Source of the DNA: a virus
DNA length: 20,930 nt
IMG/VR virus record: IMGVR_UViG_3300025769_001038
Span: 1 to 20,930 of that record
Reading direction: 5' to 3' (one strand)
Under the pieces are notes generated by a model. The model ran no database searches, was not told the DNA's origin, and was given only the letters and a program-made list of their open reading frames with translations. Every line of letters begins with the position of its first letter. The first letter of the stretch is position 1. Positions 1-19,584 of the stretch are shown here, one piece after another. Made by a program: the position numbers and the translations under genes.

Positions 1-163
1 TATTCTATTAGCTATTTCAGCCTAAAAATTACCTTTTAAAATATCTTTAGTTAAATCAGCTAGTTGGACTTGGTTTAAAATTGCTCTTTTGCAAGTTTGG
101 GGGGCTACTATAATTATTACTGACCCCATCTCCCCCCTCCCGCCCCTTCAATCGACCCTACCT

Positions 164-214
164 CCATCGAACGAACGCTCGATATATCTCCTGGCCATCG
201 AACAATCGCTCGAT
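164..214. repeat. Two 20-bp operator-like repeats, ATCGA...TCGAT
   Basis: Positions 164-183 and 195-214 are direct repeats matching at 18 of 20 bases, 31 bp apart start to start (about three helical turns). Each core begins ATCGA and ends TCGAT, so each is itself an inverted repeat. The spacing on one DNA face and the dyad symmetry are typical of a dimeric regulator's tandem operators. The binding protein is unknown. Origin iterons are the alternative. Confidence 0.55.
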
Positions 215-216
215 AA

Positions 217-257
217 TTGGTCAGACCAAATTGGTCAGACCAAATTGGTAGGGCCAA
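217..257. repeat. Three tandem 14-bp palindromic repeats, TTGGTCAGACCAA
   Basis: TTGGTCAGACCAA occurs exactly at 217-229 and 231-243, and a degenerate third copy TTGGTAGGGCCAA lies at 245-257, giving a strict 14-bp period. Each unit is a perfect or near-perfect inverted repeat (TTGGTC / GACCAA). The array directly follows the ATCGA repeats. The most likely role is a protein-binding array (operator or replication iterons). No protein can be assigned from sequence alone. Confidence 0.55.
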
Positions 258-331
258 ATGGTGTGAGGGGTTTTGTGGTAGCCATTAAACAGCAACTCGC
301 TAACCACTCAAGCCAATCCACGACCATAAAC

Positions 332-351
332 TACTGTATAAAAGAACAGTA
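332..351. promoter_or_regulatory. LexA (SOS) box
   Basis: The 20-mer TACTGTATAAAAGAACAGTA fits the gammaproteobacterial LexA consensus TACTG-(TA)5-CAGTA at every conserved outer base, with an AT-rich core. CTG is at 334-336 and CAG at 347-349, with the required 10 bases between them. It abuts a possible -35 element at 350-355 and lies about 95 bases upstream of the first early gene, which is a normal place for LexA to block transcription. This implies control by host LexA or a phage LexA-like repressor. Binding itself is inferred. Confidence 0.65.
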
Positions 352-378
352 GACAAGATAGAATTTATTATATAGACT
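350..378 (+). promoter_or_regulatory. Candidate sigma70-type early promoter
   Basis: TAGACA (350-355, 5 of 6 matches to TTGACA) and TAGACT (373-378, 4 of 6 matches to TATAAT) are separated by 17 bases. The -35 overlaps the right end of the LexA box, and the start point would fall next to the second palindrome (387-402). The arrangement would let a repressor on either site block initiation. A TATAAA inside the LexA box (337-342) is an alternative -10, but I see no good -35 for it. Confidence 0.4.
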
Positions 379-386
379 CTTAATCA

Positions 387-402
387 CTGTCAACAATGAC
401 AG
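387..402. promoter_or_regulatory. Second CTG-N10-CAG palindrome, LexA-like
   Basis: CTGTCAACAATGACAG is a perfect 6-4-6 inverted repeat with the CTGT-N8-ACAG skeleton of a LexA box but a non-alternating core, so it would be a weaker site. It starts 53 bp after the equivalent base of the first box, about five helical turns, compatible with cooperative binding on one face. It sits close to the predicted transcription start. It could instead form an RNA hairpin in the leader of the first early mRNA. Confidence 0.4.
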
Positions 403-444: not shown

Positions 445-606
445 ATGAATAAGTATTACTCGAACAACTACATCGGACAAATTGAAGTAACAGACCCTAA
501 CGGCGACACTAATATTGTTCACTTGGTAGAAATAATCGGCGGACCGGATTACAGCTTCGCTATTTATGCGGTTCATTCTAACGGCTATTACACTTATTCC
601 GAGTAA
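445..606 (+). CDS. Small early protein, unknown (53 aa)
   Basis: The first gene after the SOS-type control region encodes 53 residues beginning MNKYYSNNYIGQIEV. A clear AGGAG ribosome site (432-436) sits 8 bases before the ATG. The product is rich in Tyr, Asn and Gly, with no Cys, no membrane segment and no motif I recognise; alternating polar and hydrophobic residues suggest a small beta-rich fold. First position in an early operon is a typical place for host-takeover or anti-defence proteins, but that is position-based inference. The opposite-strand open frame over this locus has no comparable ribosome site. Confidence 0.6.
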   Translation: MNKYYSNNYIGQIEVTDPNGDTNIVHLVEIIGGPDYSFAIYAVHSNGYYTYSE

Positions 607-619
607 CCACACTGACGAG

Positions 620-666
620 AGCCAGACTTAGTACCGTTATAGGAGCGGTACTGCTGGTTGGCTTTT
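620..666 (+). terminator. Possible terminator or leader hairpin between the first two genes
   Basis: GTACCG (631-636) pairs with CGGTAC (646-651). An outer stem of AGCC (620-623) with GGCT (660-663), and CCAG (622-625) facing CTGG (654-657), could extend it with bulges, ending in TTTT (663-666). The U tract is short and the stem imperfect, so it may be a weak terminator or a processing hairpin. Confidence 0.3.
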
Positions 667-681
667 CAACCGTAACCCTGA

Positions 682-706
682 TGACACTTGTCATCAACAA
701 TGACAG
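682..706. promoter_or_regulatory. TGACA/TGTCA palindrome cluster
   Basis: TGACA-CT-TGTCA (682-693) is an inverted repeat, and another TGACA follows at 701-705. The 13-mer TCAACAATGACAG (694-706) is identical to 390-402 in the first palindrome upstream of the 445 gene. Both copies precede small genes. This could be a shared regulator site or a shared mRNA leader element. It is not a LexA box because the CTG-N10-CAG spacing fails. Confidence 0.35.
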
Positions 707-728
707 GAACAAAAAAGAGGAAAAGACA

Positions 729-887
729 ATGAAAGATGAAAAGAAATTGTATGCGGTATGGGTGGGAGGTGTTGCCGACTATTTTGATGATGAAGTGAGC
801 GCGGAATTGTCTGCACGTTATTGGAAGGCAGAAGGCTATGACGACGTGCAAGTAGAATTAATCGGGGCGATAGAATCTAATCAATAA
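729..887 (+). CDS. Small early protein, unknown (52 aa)
   Basis: The start at 729 is preferred over the in-frame ATG at 681 because AGAGGAAA lies just upstream at normal spacing, whereas 681 sits inside the TGACA palindrome cluster. The 52-residue product (MKDEKKLYAVWVGGVADYFD...) has the look of short phage proteins combining a V-W-V strand, an acidic DYFDDE segment, a helix with ELSARYWKAEGYDD, and a closing VQVELI strand, that is a small alpha/beta domain. No catalytic motif is visible. Function is unknown; it is likely co-regulated with the flanking small genes. Confidence 0.6.
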   Translation: MKDEKKLYAVWVGGVADYFDDEVSAELSARYWKAEGYDDVQVELIGAIESNQ

Positions 888-894
888 CAATCAC

Positions 895-912
895 TGGGGG
901 CTTCGACCCCCA
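895..912 (+). other. Strong GC stem-loop between early genes
   Basis: TGGGGG (895-900), loop CTTCGA, and CCCCCA (907-912) form a perfect 6-bp GC-rich hairpin directly after the stop at 887 and before the ribosome site of the 930 gene. It lacks a T tract, so it is more likely an mRNA stability or processing element than a full intrinsic terminator. Confidence 0.4.
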
Positions 913-929
913 TTACAGAGGGTTAAACA

Positions 930-1157
930 ATGAGATCGGTATATATCGGTTCGGCAACACGGCCAGACGGTTATTTCGGGGACACTGTAAGGGTTTACCT
1001 AGTTTTTGATAATGGTTATCTGTACGAGGTTCACAGGTACGGATACCATAAGTCCCCCGTTCTGCCTATGCAATTCGCAGATTATATAGAGGCGGCTGCA
1101 TATATAGGTTTCAATCCAGAAGCAAAAGAATTTTATTCGGACGTTATTTATTCTTAG
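930..1157 (+). CDS. Small early protein, unknown (75 aa)
   Basis: Encodes 75 residues starting MRSVYIGSATRPDGYFGD, with AGAGGG (917-922) 7 bases before the ATG. Aromatic residues are abundant (many Tyr and Phe), the N-terminal half looks like strands, and there is a probable helix around ADYIEAAAYIG. No signal peptide, Cys or membrane segment is seen. The stop codon TAG overlaps the AGGAGG ribosome site of the next gene, implying tight co-expression. Family not recognised. Confidence 0.6.
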   Translation: MRSVYIGSATRPDGYFGDTVRVYLVFDNGYLYEVHRYGYHKSPVLPMQFADYIEAAAYIGFNPEAKEFYSDVIYS

Positions 1158-1169
1158 GAGGGTAAGACA

Positions 1170-1487
1170 ATGAATGACTTTATTATCAATGACTACATAC
1201 TGAACCAAGAAGCACGCGAGATCGTGGACGAGATTCTATCTCAAGCCGATGAAGGTCAGGATATTGAGGAGCTGATCAGTCAGACGGTAGACGGCCACGA
1301 GTGGGTTATCTACACCTACAAGGCGCTTAGACTCTGCGCTGAGTGCAACACCACAGAAGGAGAGGCAATGCTAGAGGATACGGGTCAGACGTTTTCAGAC
1401 GTAGGCAAACACGCAACAGCGGTCGCATACTGGACTCTATGCGTGGCGTGTTATAACTACTTAAACGAATTACAGGAGGCGGCATAA
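1170..1487 (+). CDS. Strongly acidic early protein, unknown (105 aa)
   Basis: AGGAGGG (1156-1162) gives an excellent start. The 105-residue product has 21 Asp/Glu against 4 Lys/Arg, a net charge near -17, with an acidic helix-rich N-terminal half (REIVDEILSQADEG, then DIEELISQTVDGHEW) and a hydrophobic C-terminal half containing several Cys (AYWTLCVACYNYLNEL). The early position and negative charge resemble DNA-mimic anti-restriction proteins such as T7 Ocr in general properties only; I see no specific sequence match. It overlaps the next start by one base (TAATG). Confidence 0.65.
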   Translation: MNDFIINDYILNQEAREIVDEILSQADEGQDIEELISQTVDGHEWVIYTYKALRLCAECNTTEGEAMLEDTGQTFSDVGKHATAVAYWTLCVACYNYLNELQEAA

Positions 1488-1720
1488 TGAACATTAAACC
1501 AATAGCATCAAATCAAACCGAACTAACTACAACAGAGGGAACCGTTATCCTGTTCTCATATCAGACACCAGTGGCAGCACTGCTACCCTCTGGGAGGTAC
1601 GTCAGGACTTCCAACTGGTACAGTCAGACAACCACTAGGCATATCAACAAGTGGCTATCTGGTGTGACTGCTGACGTTGAAGAACAACCAGAATCATTCT
1701 TCCACAGCTTAACGGCCTAG
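1487..1720 (+). CDS. Small early protein with TPVA...TTRHINKWL motif (77 aa)
   Basis: Translation is coupled to the previous gene (TAATG) with AGGAGG at 1474-1479. Residues about 22-58 read as a strand with SYQTPVAALLP, then RYVRTSNWYSQTTTRHINKWL. I associate this pattern with a family of small phage and plasmid proteins of unknown function, possibly the one labelled DUF8033; that label is from memory and uncertain. The conserved Tyr, Trp, Ser/Thr-rich and Arg-His cluster suggests a binding surface. Function unknown. Confidence 0.6.
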   Translation: MNIKPIASNQTELTTTEGTVILFSYQTPVAALLPSGRYVRTSNWYSQTTTRHINKWLSGVTADVEEQPESFFHSLTA

Positions 1721-3142: not shown

Positions 3143-3143
3143 A

Positions 3144-3246
3144 GATGGAAGAAGCGGTCTATCACGTATCAAGGCATTGCTAACGCTATCGCTGCACAAT
3201 GGGGATCGGGCCGAAGTACTTGTGCCCGATGTGAAAAGGGGGACTG
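3144..3246 (+). pseudogene. Orphan 3' fragment of a second C5-methyltransferase
   Basis: Bases 3144-3208 match 2651-2715 at 54 of 65 positions (about 83%). In the methyltransferase frame this stretch reads WKKRSITYQGIANAIAAQWG and continues SGRSTCARCEKGD to a stop at 3244-3246. That is the motif X C-terminus of a related enzyme with its own tail. It has no start: an in-frame TAA, the stop of the preceding membrane-protein gene (3140-3142), sits just before it. Differences are mostly at third codon positions, so it is a diverged homologue and not a fresh tandem duplication. It looks like a recombination scar. Confidence 0.65.
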
Positions 3247-4846: not shown

Positions 4847-5814
4847 AGATCCCAGACAAAATTGATCTCAGGGACTACATCAAGTTAGTGGGAGAGCTTG
4901 AGGCTCAAGAGATTCACTCAGCAGGCAAGTGGAGGGATGAGCTACTTGCCAAGGCTCTGGGAGACGAGGAAGTCACAGGTGATACTCTTCCTTGGGGGAA
5001 AGTGAAGGAATATTTCAGGCTCAGACCATCAGAAGTTACCGTTTGGGCTGGTATGAACGGACATAGGAAGTCGATGGCAACTGGCATGGTGGCTCTGGAT
5101 CTTGCACATCAAGGGAAAAGAATCGCCATAGCATCACTTGAGATGAAACCAGCAGAGACTCTGTGGAGAATGTGTCTTCAGGCCAGTGGGATTGCTCATG
5201 GCAAGCCATCCAAGGGATTTGTCGATGACTTCACTGACTTTGCTGATGAACACATCCTGATTTATGACCAACTAGACTCGATAGCTACTGAAAAAGTCTT
5301 AGGATTTGTGAATTACGTTGGGTCTGAACTCAAGTGCAATCACATCTTCCTGGACTCTCTGGCTAAATGTGGGATAGGAGTTGAGAACCGTGAAGGTGAA
5401 TCTGATTTCATCAATAATTTGGCTTGGTCTGCAAAACATCTAGGTACTCACATACACCTTGTCTCTCACGTAAGAAAACCTCACTCGGCTGGGGAAGAGT
5501 ATGTGCCAAGTAAGTTTGATGTGAAGGGTAACTCTGCAATCGTGGATCTGGCTGACAATTTGATTGTCTGCTGGGCTGACAAGAGGCGGGAGAACTTGAA
5601 ACATCTCCCAATCCTAGACGATAAACAATTGGAATACATGAACAATACTTTTGACCAAAAGCTGATTGTCGCAAAGCAAAGGCATGGTGCCTGGGAAGGC
5701 ACGATTGGCCTGTACTCGCATCATAGTTTGCAGTTCACAGCAAACAAAGGAAAGTCGATTGAATATGACTTGACTGTTAGAAACGACAGTGCTACTGTTT
5801 GCAATGACAACTAA
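4843..5814 (+). CDS. DnaB-like replicative helicase, RecA-fold domain (323 aa)
   Basis: Overlaps the initiator stop (ATGA) with a GAGGAG ribosome site. Walker A is GMNGHRKSM (residues 70-78, K76 and S77), the ESLEMKP-type segment ASLEMKPAETLWRM follows at 97-110, Walker B is HIFLDSL (167-173, D171), a sensor-like LVSHVRKP occurs at 206-213, and KGNSAIVDLADNLI (228-241) matches the DnaB/gp4 helicase core around the DNA-binding loop. A basic RHG...G motif lies near residues 274-280. It should form a hexamer unwinding DNA at the fork. It has no DnaB N-terminal domain and no primase; an unusual short N-terminal segment (1-55) takes their place, perhaps contacting the initiator or the zinc-finger protein. 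Confidence 0.8.
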   Translation: MKIPDKIDLRDYIKLVGELEAQEIHSAGKWRDELLAKALGDEEVTGDTLPWGKVKEYFRLRPSEVTVWAGMNGHRKSMATGMVALDLAHQGKRIAIASLEMKPAETLWRMCLQASGIAHGKPSKGFVDDFTDFADEHILIYDQLDSIATEKVLGFVNYVGSELKCNHIFLDSLAKCGIGVENREGESDFINNLAWSAKHLGTHIHLVSHVRKPHSAGEEYVPSKFDVKGNSAIVDLADNLIVCWADKRRENLKHLPILDDKQLEYMNNTFDQKLIVAKQRHGAWEGTIGLYSHHSLQFTANKGKSIEYDLTVRNDSATVCNDN

Positions 5815-7714: not shown

Positions 7715-7915
7715 ATGAACTGTGGGGAGATGTTAAAGCGTTTGCATAAAGAAAGCGGAATGACCAAGGCTGAAGTGTCAAAAGCACTAAATATGGACAG
7801 TGGGAATTACTGCAGAACTTTACAGCAGAATGATATGTTGTTCTCCACCTTCTTTAGGATTGCAGATCAAATGACAACCAGGGACAAGATATGCCAAATG
7901 TTGATACAGCGTTAA
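7715..7915 (+). CDS. Small HTH (Cro/CI-like) protein (66 aa)
   Basis: AGGAGGA lies 6 bases before the ATG. Residues 2-50 fit a compact Xre-type helix-turn-helix: GEMLKRLHKESGMTKAEVSKAL (helices 1-2), NMDSGNYCRTLQQNDMLFS (turn and recognition helix), then TFFRIADQM. Nothing else is fused to it. It could bind one of the palindromes at 164-257 or 3672-3700 as a Cro-like switch, but location mid-operon also fits a local role. The following gene's start lies 25 bases inside this gene. Confidence 0.6.
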   Translation: MNCGEMLKRLHKESGMTKAEVSKALNMDSGNYCRTLQQNDMLFSTFFRIADQMTTRDKICQMLIQR

Positions 7916-8536: not shown

Positions 8537-8931
8537 TTACATCAGTCTGTAAATACTGTAAGGAGAAGTTTAAAGCAAAGCAAATAAAAAGCTTCTGCTC
8601 TAATTCCTGCAGGTGTAAGTTCTGGTACTACAATAAGAAGAACAGTCCTACAAACAGTATTAAGTGTCAAAACTGTGAGATTTTATTTGAGCCTCCAAAG
8701 TGGGTTAAGAGTGACCAAAAGAATAATCTATCCTATTGTTCTGATAAGTGTCGAAATACCGTATTTACAACTAAAGCAATGTATACCTGTACGATATCTA
8801 TGCCTGAATATAGAATAGTTTGCGCTAATAATAAGGCTTTTCAGATGTGGCATGACGCAATCACAAAAATACAGGGGCCAGATGTTAATAGTGGCGAGGT
8901 TTGGATTTATGGAAGTGAGAAAGATATCTGA
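8533..8931 (+). CDS. Protein with two FCS/MYM-like zinc fingers (132 aa)
   Basis: The ATGA overlap sets the start. Finger 1 (residues 6-30) is CKYCKEKF...FCSNSCRCKFWYY; finger 2 (45-75) is CQNCEILFEPP...YCSDKCRNTVF. Each has the C-x2-C...C-x3-C spacing of treble-clef or TRASH/FCS fingers found in phage and transposon-associated proteins. The C-terminal 50 residues (TISMPEYRIVCANN, then FQMWHDAITKIQG) form another small domain. Likely zinc-dependent nucleic-acid or protein binding. No nuclease motif is visible. Confidence 0.65.
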   Translation: MITSVCKYCKEKFKAKQIKSFCSNSCRCKFWYYNKKNSPTNSIKCQNCEILFEPPKWVKSDQKNNLSYCSDKCRNTVFTTKAMYTCTISMPEYRIVCANNKAFQMWHDAITKIQGPDVNSGEVWIYGSEKDI

Positions 8932-9127: not shown

Positions 9128-10336
9128 ATGCACAAGAGTGATCCCCCAGATCCAAAAATACTTGAGCTTGGAGAGCCTACTCAGTTACAGAGAAAATTAC
9201 TTCAAGCATGGATTGATGAAGGGAGCAAGAGGAAAGCTGCCAAAGCATTAAACCATCCGTTAAGCCCATTCTCCACAGCCAGAAGCTCTGTTGAAAAAAG
9301 AGCAGCAGAGAAAGGCTGGACAAAAGGAGGAGACAACTCCCACCTTGTACCTTCAGGATATTATGTAAGAGGAACTTCTACATTAATAGACTCTGAAACT
9401 GGAGAAGAGAAGCTAAAATGGGTAAAGGTAGATAAAGAGAAAGAAGCCTACGAACAGGCCCTTAAAGATTTCATAGAGGTACTAACAGATAGCGTTCCGC
9501 CAAAGAAGCCAGAAAGGAACACAATCAAAGCTTATGAAGAGAACCTGATGAGCGGGATCTTTATAGGAGATTCACATTTTGGTATGTACGCTACTGCTGA
9601 TGAGACTAAACACTCAGACTATGATTCAGACATTGCTACAGAGCTTATGAGGGACGCTATTGATGACCTTGTTGATAGATCTCCTAATAGTTCTATTGGC
9701 CTCCTGGTTGACGTTGGTGACTATATGCACAGCAACTCATCTCATAATAAGACTTTTAAAGGAACCCCTGTAGATACGGATACGAGATTCTCCAGGGTTC
9801 TTAGGAAGGCTGGTCAAGCAATGAACCATGCAGTATCCAGAATGTTAGAGAAGTTTCCCAAAGTAGTTGTCGTAATAGCAAAGGGGAATCATAATCCTGA
9901 TATAGCTGTGTGTGTTCAAGAGATAGTAAAGGCTTACTATAGGGATGAACCAAGGGTTACAGTCTTAGATACTAATGGTGATTTTCATTACTTAGCCTGG
10001 GGAGATTGGTTAATAGGCATAAATCATGGAGACAAGATTCGCCCTGAAAGATTGGTTTCATGTATGGCAAGAGATATGCCTAAAGCCTGGGGGAGAAGTA
10101 AATCAAGAATGTGGGCTGTAGGTCATTACCATCATCAAGATGTTAAAGAAATAGATGGGTGTATAGTCCAGAAGTTTGCTGCTCTACCTCCCCCTGATGG
10201 CTGGCATTCATCTTCTGGTTATGGATCTAACCAGGCAATGCAGATGATAGTGTTTAAAAAGGAAGGAGGGAGACATTCTACTTTAATCTATGAACTCCCA
10301 AGACCAGAAACAGAACCTGACATTGTTATCGAGTAA
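9128..10336 (+). CDS. Calcineurin-like metallophosphoesterase with N-terminal HTH segment (402 aa)
   Basis: TAGGAGACAG precedes the ATG. Residues 15-65 look like a helix-turn-helix (TQLQRKLLQAWIDEGSKRKAAKAL, then SSVEKRAAEKGW). From about 140 the metallophosphoesterase motifs appear in order: GDSHFG (D148, H150), VGDYMH (D198), KGNHN (N254, H255), NHGD (H300) and GHYHHQ (H333, H335). These bind two metal ions for phosphodiester cleavage. Phage members of this architecture are usually annotated as DNA phosphoesterases, related in fold to Mre11/SbcD. The position among recombination genes and the DNA-binding-like N-terminus suggest it acts on DNA ends or hairpins; the substrate is unproven. Confidence 0.75.
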   Translation: MHKSDPPDPKILELGEPTQLQRKLLQAWIDEGSKRKAAKALNHPLSPFSTARSSVEKRAAEKGWTKGGDNSHLVPSGYYVRGTSTLIDSETGEEKLKWVKVDKEKEAYEQALKDFIEVLTDSVPPKKPERNTIKAYEENLMSGIFIGDSHFGMYATADETKHSDYDSDIATELMRDAIDDLVDRSPNSSIGLLVDVGDYMHSNSSHNKTFKGTPVDTDTRFSRVLRKAGQAMNHAVSRMLEKFPKVVVVIAKGNHNPDIAVCVQEIVKAYYRDEPRVTVLDTNGDFHYLAWGDWLIGINHGDKIRPERLVSCMARDMPKAWGRSKSRMWAVGHYHHQDVKEIDGCIVQKFAALPPPDGWHSSSGYGSNQAMQMIVFKKEGGRHSTLIYELPRPETEPDIVIE

Positions 10337-10338
10337 TT

Positions 10339-10761
10339 ATGAAGATTAAAAGCTTAAACGCATTAGTCGATGAAGTTGCAGTCCTTCTCCAAAAGAGGGT
10401 CAGATTAAAGGCTGCTCTATCTGCCAATAAGGGTGGATTTATAGAGTGTGTTACTTGTAATAAGTGGTATCACTGGAAGAATATGCAGGGAGGCCACTGG
10501 ATAGAAAGAGGGAAGAAAGCTACCAAAACTTTAGAAGAGAATATTCATCCTCAATGCGCTGGCTGTAATCAGTATGGGATGAAACATAGAACTCTTGTTA
10601 GAGAGAATTACTCTAAATACATGAGAGAGATGTATGGAGATGATTTCTGTGAGCAGCTTCTTATTAACTGTAATAGGCCAGTCAAATTTTATAGAGAAGA
10701 CCTAAAAGAACAGATCAAAGAGTTAAAGAAAGAGAACAAAGAGATGGAGGCGCAGCTATAA
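10339..10761 (+). CDS. ninG: NinG (Rap)-like recombination endonuclease (140 aa)
   Basis: Starts two bases after the previous stop without a clear ribosome site, so coupled translation is likely. The core matches NinG: FIECVTCNKWYHWKNMQGGHWIERG (C37, C40, H53), then NIHPQCAGCNQYG (C73, C76), followed by a basic helix, and a coiled C-terminal tail rich in Lys and Glu (about 122-140). Lambda NinG cuts Holliday junctions and D-loops during recombination, with an HNH-like zinc fold. It complements the ERF and exonuclease genes upstream. Confidence 0.75.
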   Translation: MKIKSLNALVDEVAVLLQKRVRLKAALSANKGGFIECVTCNKWYHWKNMQGGHWIERGKKATKTLEENIHPQCAGCNQYGMKHRTLVRENYSKYMREMYGDDFCEQLLINCNRPVKFYREDLKEQIKELKKENKEMEAQL

Positions 10762-17285: not shown

Positions 17286-17932
17286 TATCTCACCACAAAA
17301 GTCATCTCTGTTGGATAACGATTTGCATCAAAAGCAATAGCATCTGACAAAACAGTAGAAGCTATTGCAAACTGTTCCATTGCTGTTTGACCGCCAGCTT
17401 CTCCCTTCTCCCTTAAAGCCATTGCGTAAGCTAGTTGTATTACAGGATTATAGGGAATTGATAAAACATCTGAATCAGAAGATAAATCTGCCTGCGGTAC
17501 TACAACATCAAACCTTAGACTATAAACAGCATCTGGTTGAGGAAATACTTTAATCTTTAAATCTGAATTAGAATCTGTGCCAATAAAAGTAAATACTTCT
17601 GGAGATCCAGAGACAACAGTATTGTTATAATAAACATTGTTAAAATAAGACTTACTTCTCTGATTCATAAACTTCTGAGAAGTAACATTCATTACATCTT
17701 TAATAACAGCCATATCCCCACTGTTGGTTAAGGAATACTCACTTACACCATTAGAAGTATTAATAGATATGGAATCTCTTAACGCAGTCCAGTCAAAAGA
17801 ATTTTCTATTGTCTTTTTAGCGTCATTAATCAAATCACCAATTAATGAAGAATAAGATGTTGCATTAGCTGTAGCAACGGTAGTTTCCCTTAGCCTTCTT
17901 AATACATTATTTATCAAGTTTAGATATGTCAT
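17285..17932 (-). CDS. Tail tubular protein A-like adaptor (215 aa)
   Basis: The N-terminus [20 protein letters not shown], then [22 protein letters not shown] is the helical start common to T7 gp11-like adaptors between portal and nozzle. The middle is beta-rich ([39 protein letters not shown]) and the C-terminus returns to helices ([20 protein letters not shown]). Length is close to the family's (about 200). Its start overlaps the stop of the 551-aa gene by ATGA. Confidence 0.8.
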
Positions 17933-19584
17933 CTTCTTAAACCAGAATATAAAATAGATTGAAACAATCCAGAATTAATATTGTCTAATTCAATTTGCCT
18001 TGGATCTCTTAACTCAGTTTTAAATATCTGAGATGTTTGTGGAGCCATACTTGCCATTGCTAATACCATTCCAGTTCCAGTTCCAGTTCCAGTACCAGTT
18101 CCAGTACCAGTTCCAGTACCAGTTCCAGTTCCAGTATTAGTTCCAGTATTAGTTCCAGTATTAGTTTCAGTATTAGTTCCAGTTCCAGTGCCAGTTCCAG
18201 TATTAGTTCCAGTTCCAGTGCCAGTGCCAGTTCCAGTTCCAGTGCCAGTGCCAGTTCCAGTTCCAGTGCCAGTGCCAGTTCCAGTTCCATTTCCACCATC
18301 TGGAGGCATATCATGTTCAGTAACAACATTATTCTCATCAATGCTGTATCCTTTGCCTGGAACAAAAACTACATCAGGAAATTCGTTAACATCTCCTTCG
18401 CGAACTTCTCCAGTAGTCGTGTTGGTAAATACACCATCGCCATTGTATTCCCAAATACCTTCATTACTTCCTGAAGTAGCTACTCCAGTTCCTGCGCCAG
18501 CAACATCTGTAGTAGTAGCTCCCCATTCTCCAAAAACTGTACCAGCATCATTTGAACTAACAATCTGACCTTCAGTATATGTACCAGGCACAGGGATAAA
18601 TGTTTCAACCCCACCTACTTGATGAAACATTCCATCTGATTCTTGATAAACCCAATCACCAGTTTGAGCAGTGCTTTGAACAGCCCCGCCTATATCTCCT
18701 GCTGCAGCTACTTCAGAATCACCTATTACGTCTAAAGGAGCTGTCTCAGCTTGTGTACCTACTGCTTCTGTAGTGGTTTGTGTAGGTTGTTGTGCTGTAT
18801 CTTGTGCAGAACCGCCACCTCCAGCGCCACCACCTCCAGAAACACCAGAATCAACAATAGTGACACGATCCAAAATAGCTCCACCAGCATCCATAGCTGT
18901 AGCAGGATCAAAAGTAGCACTATCAACAAAAATACCAAACTCTCCCAATACATCACCAGCATTTTCGCCATTAACATAAATACGTTGTGCAATCTCATCT
19001 ACTTGAGCTTGCGTAATAGGAACAGGAGTCTGCTCTGCTTGAGAAACAGCATCATAAAAATTCTCAGACTGAGAATCTAATTCCATATCAATTAAATCTT
19101 GTTGTGGAGACAGTAATTCGTTATCAAAGTCGCTGTTTTTAAGATCTGCAACTAATTCAGTCATTGTGTTTACACCAGCAGATCCAACTGTTTCTTTTAC
19201 TTTGTTATAGTAATCAATCATCATCTCAGGGCTTAATGACATAACACCTTCAGTATCTTGCCCTGTCTCAGTCTTGCCTGTCTCCCTCATCATATCTTCA
19301 TAGCCCTGCTGCATCACAGAGGCTTGTTGTTTAGGAGTTAAATCATCAAATTTAGGTGCGTCAGGATTTAACCCAAAAATGTCCCACTTTCTAGCTAAAT
19401 AAGAAAAAACAGCTAATATTGGATTAAACTGAAAAAAACCACCGCCAATAGTCCCTGACAATCCACCAGCAGTAGCTTCACCCAAGTATTGAGCGCCTTG
19501 TTCTATTGCACGACTACCGCCTATGTAGTTTCCTGCAGCGTCATACAGTGGGGAATCTAGCACTCCAACTGGATTTAATGGCAT
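17929..19584 (-). CDS. Large late protein with Gly-Thr repeat domain (551 aa)
   Basis: AAGGAG before the ATG gives a secure start. The N-terminal 100 residues include [20 protein letters not shown] and [20 protein letters not shown]. An acidic Gln-rich region follows, then a Gly-rich linker ([13 protein letters not shown], about residue 255) and a beta-like region with [15 protein letters not shown] and [18 protein letters not shown]. Residues about 434-505 are Gly-Thr and Asn-Thr dipeptides, before a short C-terminus. It is probably a virion-associated or lysis-linked structural protein placed between the lysis genes and the tail adaptor. Family not recognised. Repeats make its length changeable. 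Confidence 0.65.
18071..18286. repeat. 36-copy hexamer tandem repeat (CCAGTN family)
   Basis: Exactly 36 hexamers in register, mostly CCAGTT, CCAGTG and CCAGTA with TTAGTT variants. They encode Gly-Thr and Asn-Thr on the minus strand. A higher-order 24-bp unit (two CCAGTT then two CCAGTG) repeats at the right end. The hexamer period preserves frame, so copy-number change would lengthen or shorten the protein without breaking it. Confidence 0.9.

Follow-up and report, generated by a model that had tools for sequence, protein, structure and literature searches.

A predicted LexA operator in the control region of an uncultivated podovirus-like phage and its relatives

Genomic setting of the control region

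The window (20,930 bases) is an entire record of IMG/VR, where it is classed as a virus; we estimate that it probably amounts to about half a genome. The early and replication genes occupy 445 to approximately 11,180 and point rightward, and the late genes point leftward, from 20,930 to 11,182. The gene assignments include a DUF1376-type primosomal protein, a DnaB/primase-like helicase, Erf, a YqaJ/RecE-like exonuclease, SSB, NinB, a metallophosphoesterase-type exonuclease, and NinG. Sequence lying to the left of the window is seen in two relatives, L003 and L016, both of which carry leftward terminase-small-subunit-like and lysozyme-like genes, with leftward terminase large subunit and portal genes additionally present in L003; 332-402 is therefore part of a divergent control region, that of a podovirus-like phage.

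The features of this region and of the early operon that follows it are collected in Table 1. None of the early operon proteins gave a Pfam match over the cut-off, and the product of the last gene matches phrog_5643, to which PHROG assigns no function. The sole regulator-like gene seen in the window (7715-7915) encodes a 66-aa Xre-like helix-turn-helix (HTH) protein whose Pfam match is below the cut-off. A near-identity search of a phage collection with the window gave zero matches, and a search of genomes for the portal protein as a route to the host returned a single 7.5-kb MAG contig, which was judged a likely binning artefact. Elsewhere in the window, a 66-bp duplication (2650-2715 and 3143-3208, 83% identical) derives from the 3′ end of a methyltransferase-like gene, and a 551-aa structural-region protein (17929-19584, minus strand) contains a long Thr-Gly repeat arising from a simple repeat.

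Table 1. Coordinates of the control-region and early-operon features in the window.
Feature	Position	Strand	Remarks
Conserved element TTTTGCAAGTTTGGGGGGCTACTATAATTATTAC, terminase side of control region	87-120		In nearly all relatives shown
Repeats CGAACGAACGCTCGATA / CGAACAATCGCTCGATA and AATTGGTCAGACCAA repeats	164-258		Site of the DnaA-box and left LexA-like arrays of relatives
LexA-type operator (predicted) TACTGTATAAAAGAACAGTA	332-351	+	20.1 bits; kept in relatives
Early sigma-70 promoter (predicted)	350-378	+	-35 TAGACA (350-355), N17, -10 TAGACT (373-378)
Inverted repeat CTGTCA-ACAA-TGACAG, predicted 5′-terminal RNA hairpin of early transcript	387-402	+	9.6 bits; fold z -3.1
Early operon, five small genes, presumed under the 350-378 promoter	445-1720	+	ORF list
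Early operon members	445-606, 681-887, 930-1157, 1170-1487, 1487-1720	+	
Another such hairpin, TGTCATCAACAATGACA, ahead of a following early gene	687-707	+	Direct repeat D3; RNA fold -8.2 kcal/mol

A LexA-type box and a leader hairpin

The original prediction placed a near-ideal LexA box at 332-351, and such a box is indeed present. It is a CTGT-N8-ACAG palindrome that scores 20.0-20.1 bits on a LexA matrix, within the range of the E. coli SOS boxes themselves (13-25 bits); the matrix was compiled from some 18-20 of these E. coli boxes, and its absolute bit values are approximate. No other site in the window scores as high (the runner-up reaches 10.4 bits), and the score was attained in 5 of 1,500 simulated 20.9-kb windows (order-3 Markov), a probability of approximately 0.003 per window. 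The LexA of the host is assumed to have a like specificity. Comparison with relatives gives strong support to LexA-type recognition of 332-351.

The box is also more conserved than its flanks, being identical or nearly identical in relatives whose flanks differ, with the exceptions of L129, L141, and L142. In principle the palindrome might function as RNA, or as a terminator, and not bind a protein at all; a stem of 6-7 bp and a terminator-like call on the minus strand would speak for this. The T tract is not conserved, however, and we consider this reading the most improbable of those weighed here. As a terminator, 332-351 was rejected, in that L128, L130, and L136 break a stem pair yet keep a good LexA box.

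A second LexA-like palindrome had been proposed at 387-402, bracketing the early promoter together with the first. The coordinates are right, but CTGTCAACAATGACAG scores 8.2-9.6 bits on the same matrix, a level at which about two sites are expected by chance per 20.9 kb. It begins some 2 nt past the predicted transcription start, inside the transcribed leader, and the proposed bracketing is for that reason wrong. The leader folds at this position (z -3.1), L096 has ACTGCTTAGGCAG at the homologous place, and the sister phages have a short, energetically weak hairpin there, ATCACTGCTTAGGCAG (z -0.9). 387-402 is not a LexA operator and would most simply be a 5′ leader hairpin. The 53-bp spacing between the two palindromes, to which attention had been drawn, is constant in the window's own clade alone (L002, L003/L114, L016/L109, L117).

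Distribution of the boxes among related phages

An exact scan of IMG/VR for the 20-mer found it in 19 contigs, approximately ten of which belong to the window's group. So that the box itself would not bias the choice, relatives were chosen via the adjacent terminase small subunit. The closer group, represented by 28 non-redundant control regions, has 40 CTGK-N8-MCAG sites in them where 0.83 would be expected, although relatedness among the phages means that these sites are not statistically independent; other half-site spacings give 0-6 sites in the same regions. The control regions of a more distant group, with terminase about 41% identical, contain zero CTGK-N8-MCAG sites. The 36 terminase-selected loci (289 kb) together contain 53 sites scoring 14 bits or more, every one of them upstream of the terminase: 50 are no more than 1.5 kb away, and the other three, at 1.5-1.8 kb, include at least one case with inserted genes. 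The structural genes contain none. The sites match LexA specificity and are confined to the control region.

Sister phages carry from one to five boxes, many of them in tandem at 15-18 bp. The right-hand box varies as TACTGTAyAAAAnnmCAGT, and the left arrays (e.g., CTGGATGGATATACAGtaCTGGATGGATTAACAG) have other centres and keep CTGK..MCAG; such variation, with fixed CTGK..MCAG and variable centres, is that of LexA sites. Most of the related phages have one or several boxes next to the early promoter and probable origin, but the right-hand box is absent from L129, L141, and L142. Loss of the box where the promoter persists, which would count against the original prediction, is therefore seen in part: the tandem pair on the left is still there in L129 and L141, and L142 has no box at all. 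This patchiness warns against calling the box essential. DSL-LC04, an isolate related to L110, has no LexA boxes. The three CTGTAT-type boxes in the 366 kb of the Erwinia jumbo phage Hallingskeid were set aside, as by our estimate they are at about the number expected by chance.

The boxes of most relatives lie within a recurrent architecture that begins, on the terminase side, with a conserved TTTTGCAAGATTGGGGGGCTACTATAATAATTAC element, followed by up to six DnaA boxes (TTATCCACA) or by CGAACGAACGCTCG repeats. The tandem left boxes come next, and after them the right box; an A/T-rich spacer leads on to a promoter resembling TTGACA-N17-TAATAT, and a leader hairpin closes the series. In L123, L133, L126, L142, and L143 the DnaA boxes form arrays of as many as six, several of them adjoining tandem LexA-like boxes, and these arrays probably mark a replication origin. 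In the window clade, other repeats replace the DnaA and left boxes; among them, at 215-258 of the window, are overlapping AATTGGTCAGACCAA palindromes, which we take to resemble operators of the PdhR/FadR family and which could form a second host-regulator site. Promoter, packaging, or origin element are all possible roles for the conserved element at 87-120. No convincing candidate was found for a leftward promoter overlapping the left arrays.

Position of the box relative to the early promoter

The candidate promoter with 17-bp spacing, also part of the original prediction, is present and matches 9 of 12 consensus bases. Taken alone it is no better than chance (1 found versus 1.9 expected from shuffles), but homologous -35/-10 pairs occur in L002, L114, and L117, and at the homologous place relatives have a better promoter than that of the window. 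Promoters with a box are not clearly weaker than those without one.

In classical LexA repression the operator overlaps the polymerase site. The end of the box lies -2 bp from the -35 in the window clade, that is, box and -35 touch, overlapping by two bases in the window; the other relatives have it 7-20 bp upstream, at 7-9 bp in L144 and L111 and at 19-20 bp in most. On this sequence geometry, the window clade alone among these relatives appears to approach the classical overlap. The distance of 19-20 bp recurs in the unrelated L098/L102 and L104/L110, in the inovirus L256, and in Cronobacter phage GAP52, and L323 and L335, whose boxes are near-ideal, have 29-30 bp.

These distances bear on whether LexA, or a LexA-like host protein, could instead act as an activator, or touch the alpha subunit of polymerase, always from the same face of the helix, in which case the early genes would be on in healthy cells. 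The distances in the window's group (-2, 7-9, and 19-20 bp) are about one helical turn apart, unrelated phages share the longest of them, and a curated list of box-to--35 distances is periodic at 10.5 bp (p ~0.003). Precedents are the gp6 protein of GIL01, a LexA homologue that works as an activator at -43.5, and reports of activation through LexA (PMC6182141). Against this, the periodicity is absent (p 0.9) from a less filtered set containing all hits of the consensus-promoter search, the phasing is post hoc, and promoters accompanied by a box are not clearly the weaker ones. We regard activation as unlikely, and helical phasing of the box to the -35 is kept as a suggestion only, because the curated set is periodic and the less filtered set is not.

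Which protein binds the box

An operator for LexA could be read by the host protein or, as the original prediction allowed, by a phage analogue. The phage records, which are partial genomes, encode no recognisable LexA DNA-binding domain, and host LexA is for this reason favoured over a phage analogue as the likelier binder. Neither a LexA/CI-type repressor, an S24 peptidase, an integrase, nor ParA was found in the records searched, again partial genomes, no gp6-like LexA homologue was detected, and no plasmid relatives were found. Within these partial genomes the combination seen in GIL01, of LexA boxes at an early promoter in a phage without its own CI/LexA repressor, is thus present.

The identical 20-mer also occurs just upstream of ORFs in L101, L108, and L112 that we take, from our reading of their translations, to be imuA-like; imuA is an SOS gene. 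It is found ahead of early promoters in unrelated phages as well. L098, a contig with T7-type replication genes, has two LexA-type boxes (9346-9365 and 8898-8917, minus strand); the additional one, TACTGTATAAATATACAGTA, is near-ideal and lies immediately after a -10 TATAAT. In L256, a filamentous-phage-like contig, the box TACTGTATAAGAGAACAGTA (5061-5080) is 19 bp upstream of TTGACA-N18-TATAAT, with a divergent repressor-like gene also present, and in L113, a contig from an isolate genome, the exact 20-mer (10469-10488) lies approximately 150 bp upstream of an integrase-like gene.

Two other kinds of protein have to be weighed. The lux box is likewise CTGT-N8-ACAG and often lies near -42, so that a quorum-sensing activator of the LuxR type could be the binder: the half-site spacing is identical, the centre of the window box is near -43.5, and one site in the V. 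fischeri luxR promoter is common to LexA and LuxR (PMC3323433). The TA...TA flanks and A/T-rich centres nevertheless fit LexA far better. Across the sites the LexA matrix gives 16-23 bits and a lux-box matrix, which is small, 0-11 (mostly below 8); for the window box the values are 20.1 and 2.3 bits, and it lacks the ACCTG...CAGGT form. With the identical 20-mer also standing ahead of the imuA-like ORFs, binding by LuxR is very improbable. Somewhat less remote, if still improbable, is a phage-encoded initiator or regulator that binds iteron-like sites beside the origin and resembles LexA in specificity only. The adjoining of tandem 15-18-bp arrays and DnaA boxes would suit such a protein, for which the small Xre-like HTH protein (66-78 aa in the window and relatives) offers a candidate. 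The sites match LexA rather than any new consensus, however, the same 20-mer recurs in unrelated phages and upstream of imuA-like ORFs, and some relatives without boxes retain the rest of the region.

Comparison with known systems

Direct LexA control has been documented mainly in temperate phages and their antirepressors, and no paper directly on LexA sites in virulent phages turned up in our literature searches. The nearest tested precedent is the Bacillus tectivirus GIL01, in which host LexA together with gp7 forms the lysogeny repressor and in which host LexA is established as the sole lysogeny regulator (PMC4551915, PMC6182141). Both systems combine early-promoter LexA boxes, some in tandem, with the lack of integration and of a CI-type repressor of the phage's own. 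GIL01, however, is temperate, a linear-plasmid tectivirus whose Gram-positive host uses another LexA box, whereas the phage described here is an uncultivated, tailed podovirus. CTX-phi, where LexA acts with RstR at the rstA/rstR promoters, likewise has a host LexA box of CTGT-N8-ACAG consensus in a phage control region, but it is filamentous and integrated and has its own repressor, of which none was found in the phage records here. In the antirepressor systems of tailed prophages (186 tum, N15 antC, and those of Salmonella), a LexA operator also ties the phage to the gammaproteobacterial SOS response; there LexA controls an antirepressor gene, whereas the box described here belongs to the region of the main early promoter and the origin.

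Possibly virulent phages whose promoters carry sites for a host master regulator include the CtrA-controlled alphaproteobacterial phages and phi29, with its Spo0A sites. Regulator and signal differ from those considered here, but the "lytic deferment" described for the CtrA phages (PMC9437464) is a precedent in concept. Cronobacter phage GAP52 (JN882286), whose host is a known enterobacterium, has, in the interval separating its late genes from the leftward early ones, DnaA boxes and then a box of LexA type that precedes TTGCAA-N17-TAATAT by 19 bp. The box, at ~338-357 on the minus strand (L302 401-420), lies ahead of the early operon; a further CTGTTTAAATGTACAG in GAP52 is conserved in three relatives. 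GAP52 is unrelated to the window, however, and its box is absent from its own relatives ECO319P1 and A24.

A proposed model for host LexA control and its significance

The reading we favour is that 332-351 is an operator for host LexA in the sole control region of an apparently non-integrating podovirus, to which we assign a probability of roughly 0.6. It is favoured because of the score and rarity of the box, the excess of sites and their confinement, the imuA-like context, and the second box of L098, and also because the records searched yielded neither a LexA domain nor an integrase, S24 peptidase, or ParA, and GIL01 provides a precedent. Relative to the original prediction the finding gains in interest because the boxes form arrays and are confined to a single region.

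The control region lies between leftward late and rightward early and replication genes, beside the probable origin, and the best reading is that host LexA would govern early transcription and perhaps origin firing too. We infer binding by host LexA, repression, and a response to damage as successive steps. Host LexA would first bind the box, which we consider probable. In the window clade, LexA at the edge of the -35 would then, somewhat less surely, lower early transcription as the phage enters a healthy cell. In the sister phages, whose one to five boxes flank both the array of DnaA boxes and the upstream part of the early promoter, which is A/T-rich and UP-like, LexA may block access to this upstream element, touch polymerase, or affect the origin. 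DNA damage, whether pre-existing or caused by infection, would finally lead to RecA-driven cleavage of LexA and release of the early genes. Repression is likelier in the window clade, where the box touches the -35, and in most relatives LexA might activate, or might disturb the contacts that polymerase makes upstream.

That damage switches on the early operon, as originally proposed, is plausible, and is weakened because the box of most relatives lies 19-20 bp upstream of the -35, a non-classical operator position. The favoured reading is further weakened because the left arrays overlap no recognisable promoter, because the right-hand box is absent from some close relatives, and because a virulent phage gains little from silencing in healthy cells. 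The asymmetric centre of the box (AAAAGA) has a fixed orientation, which weakens the reading as a site for a LexA dimer, since a symmetric dimer needs none. A broader scheme, which we offer as speculative and doubtful, is that host LexA or a LexA-like protein makes helix-phased contact with polymerase at the early promoters of several unrelated virulent phages, that tandem LexA boxes beside DnaA boxes gate the origin, and that integration-free phages time or defer lysis by the SOS state.

Uncultivated and tailed, and with neither an integrase nor a repressor that could be recognised, the phages of this group keep LexA operators, in some cases five, in the one control region they have. If the operators work, the control region would provide a sequence signature for finding such phages, and infection would be postponed or tuned by the DNA-damage state of the host without lysogeny genes. 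The conservation of the operators in most relatives suggests that these apparently non-integrating viruses sense the DNA-damage state of their hosts.
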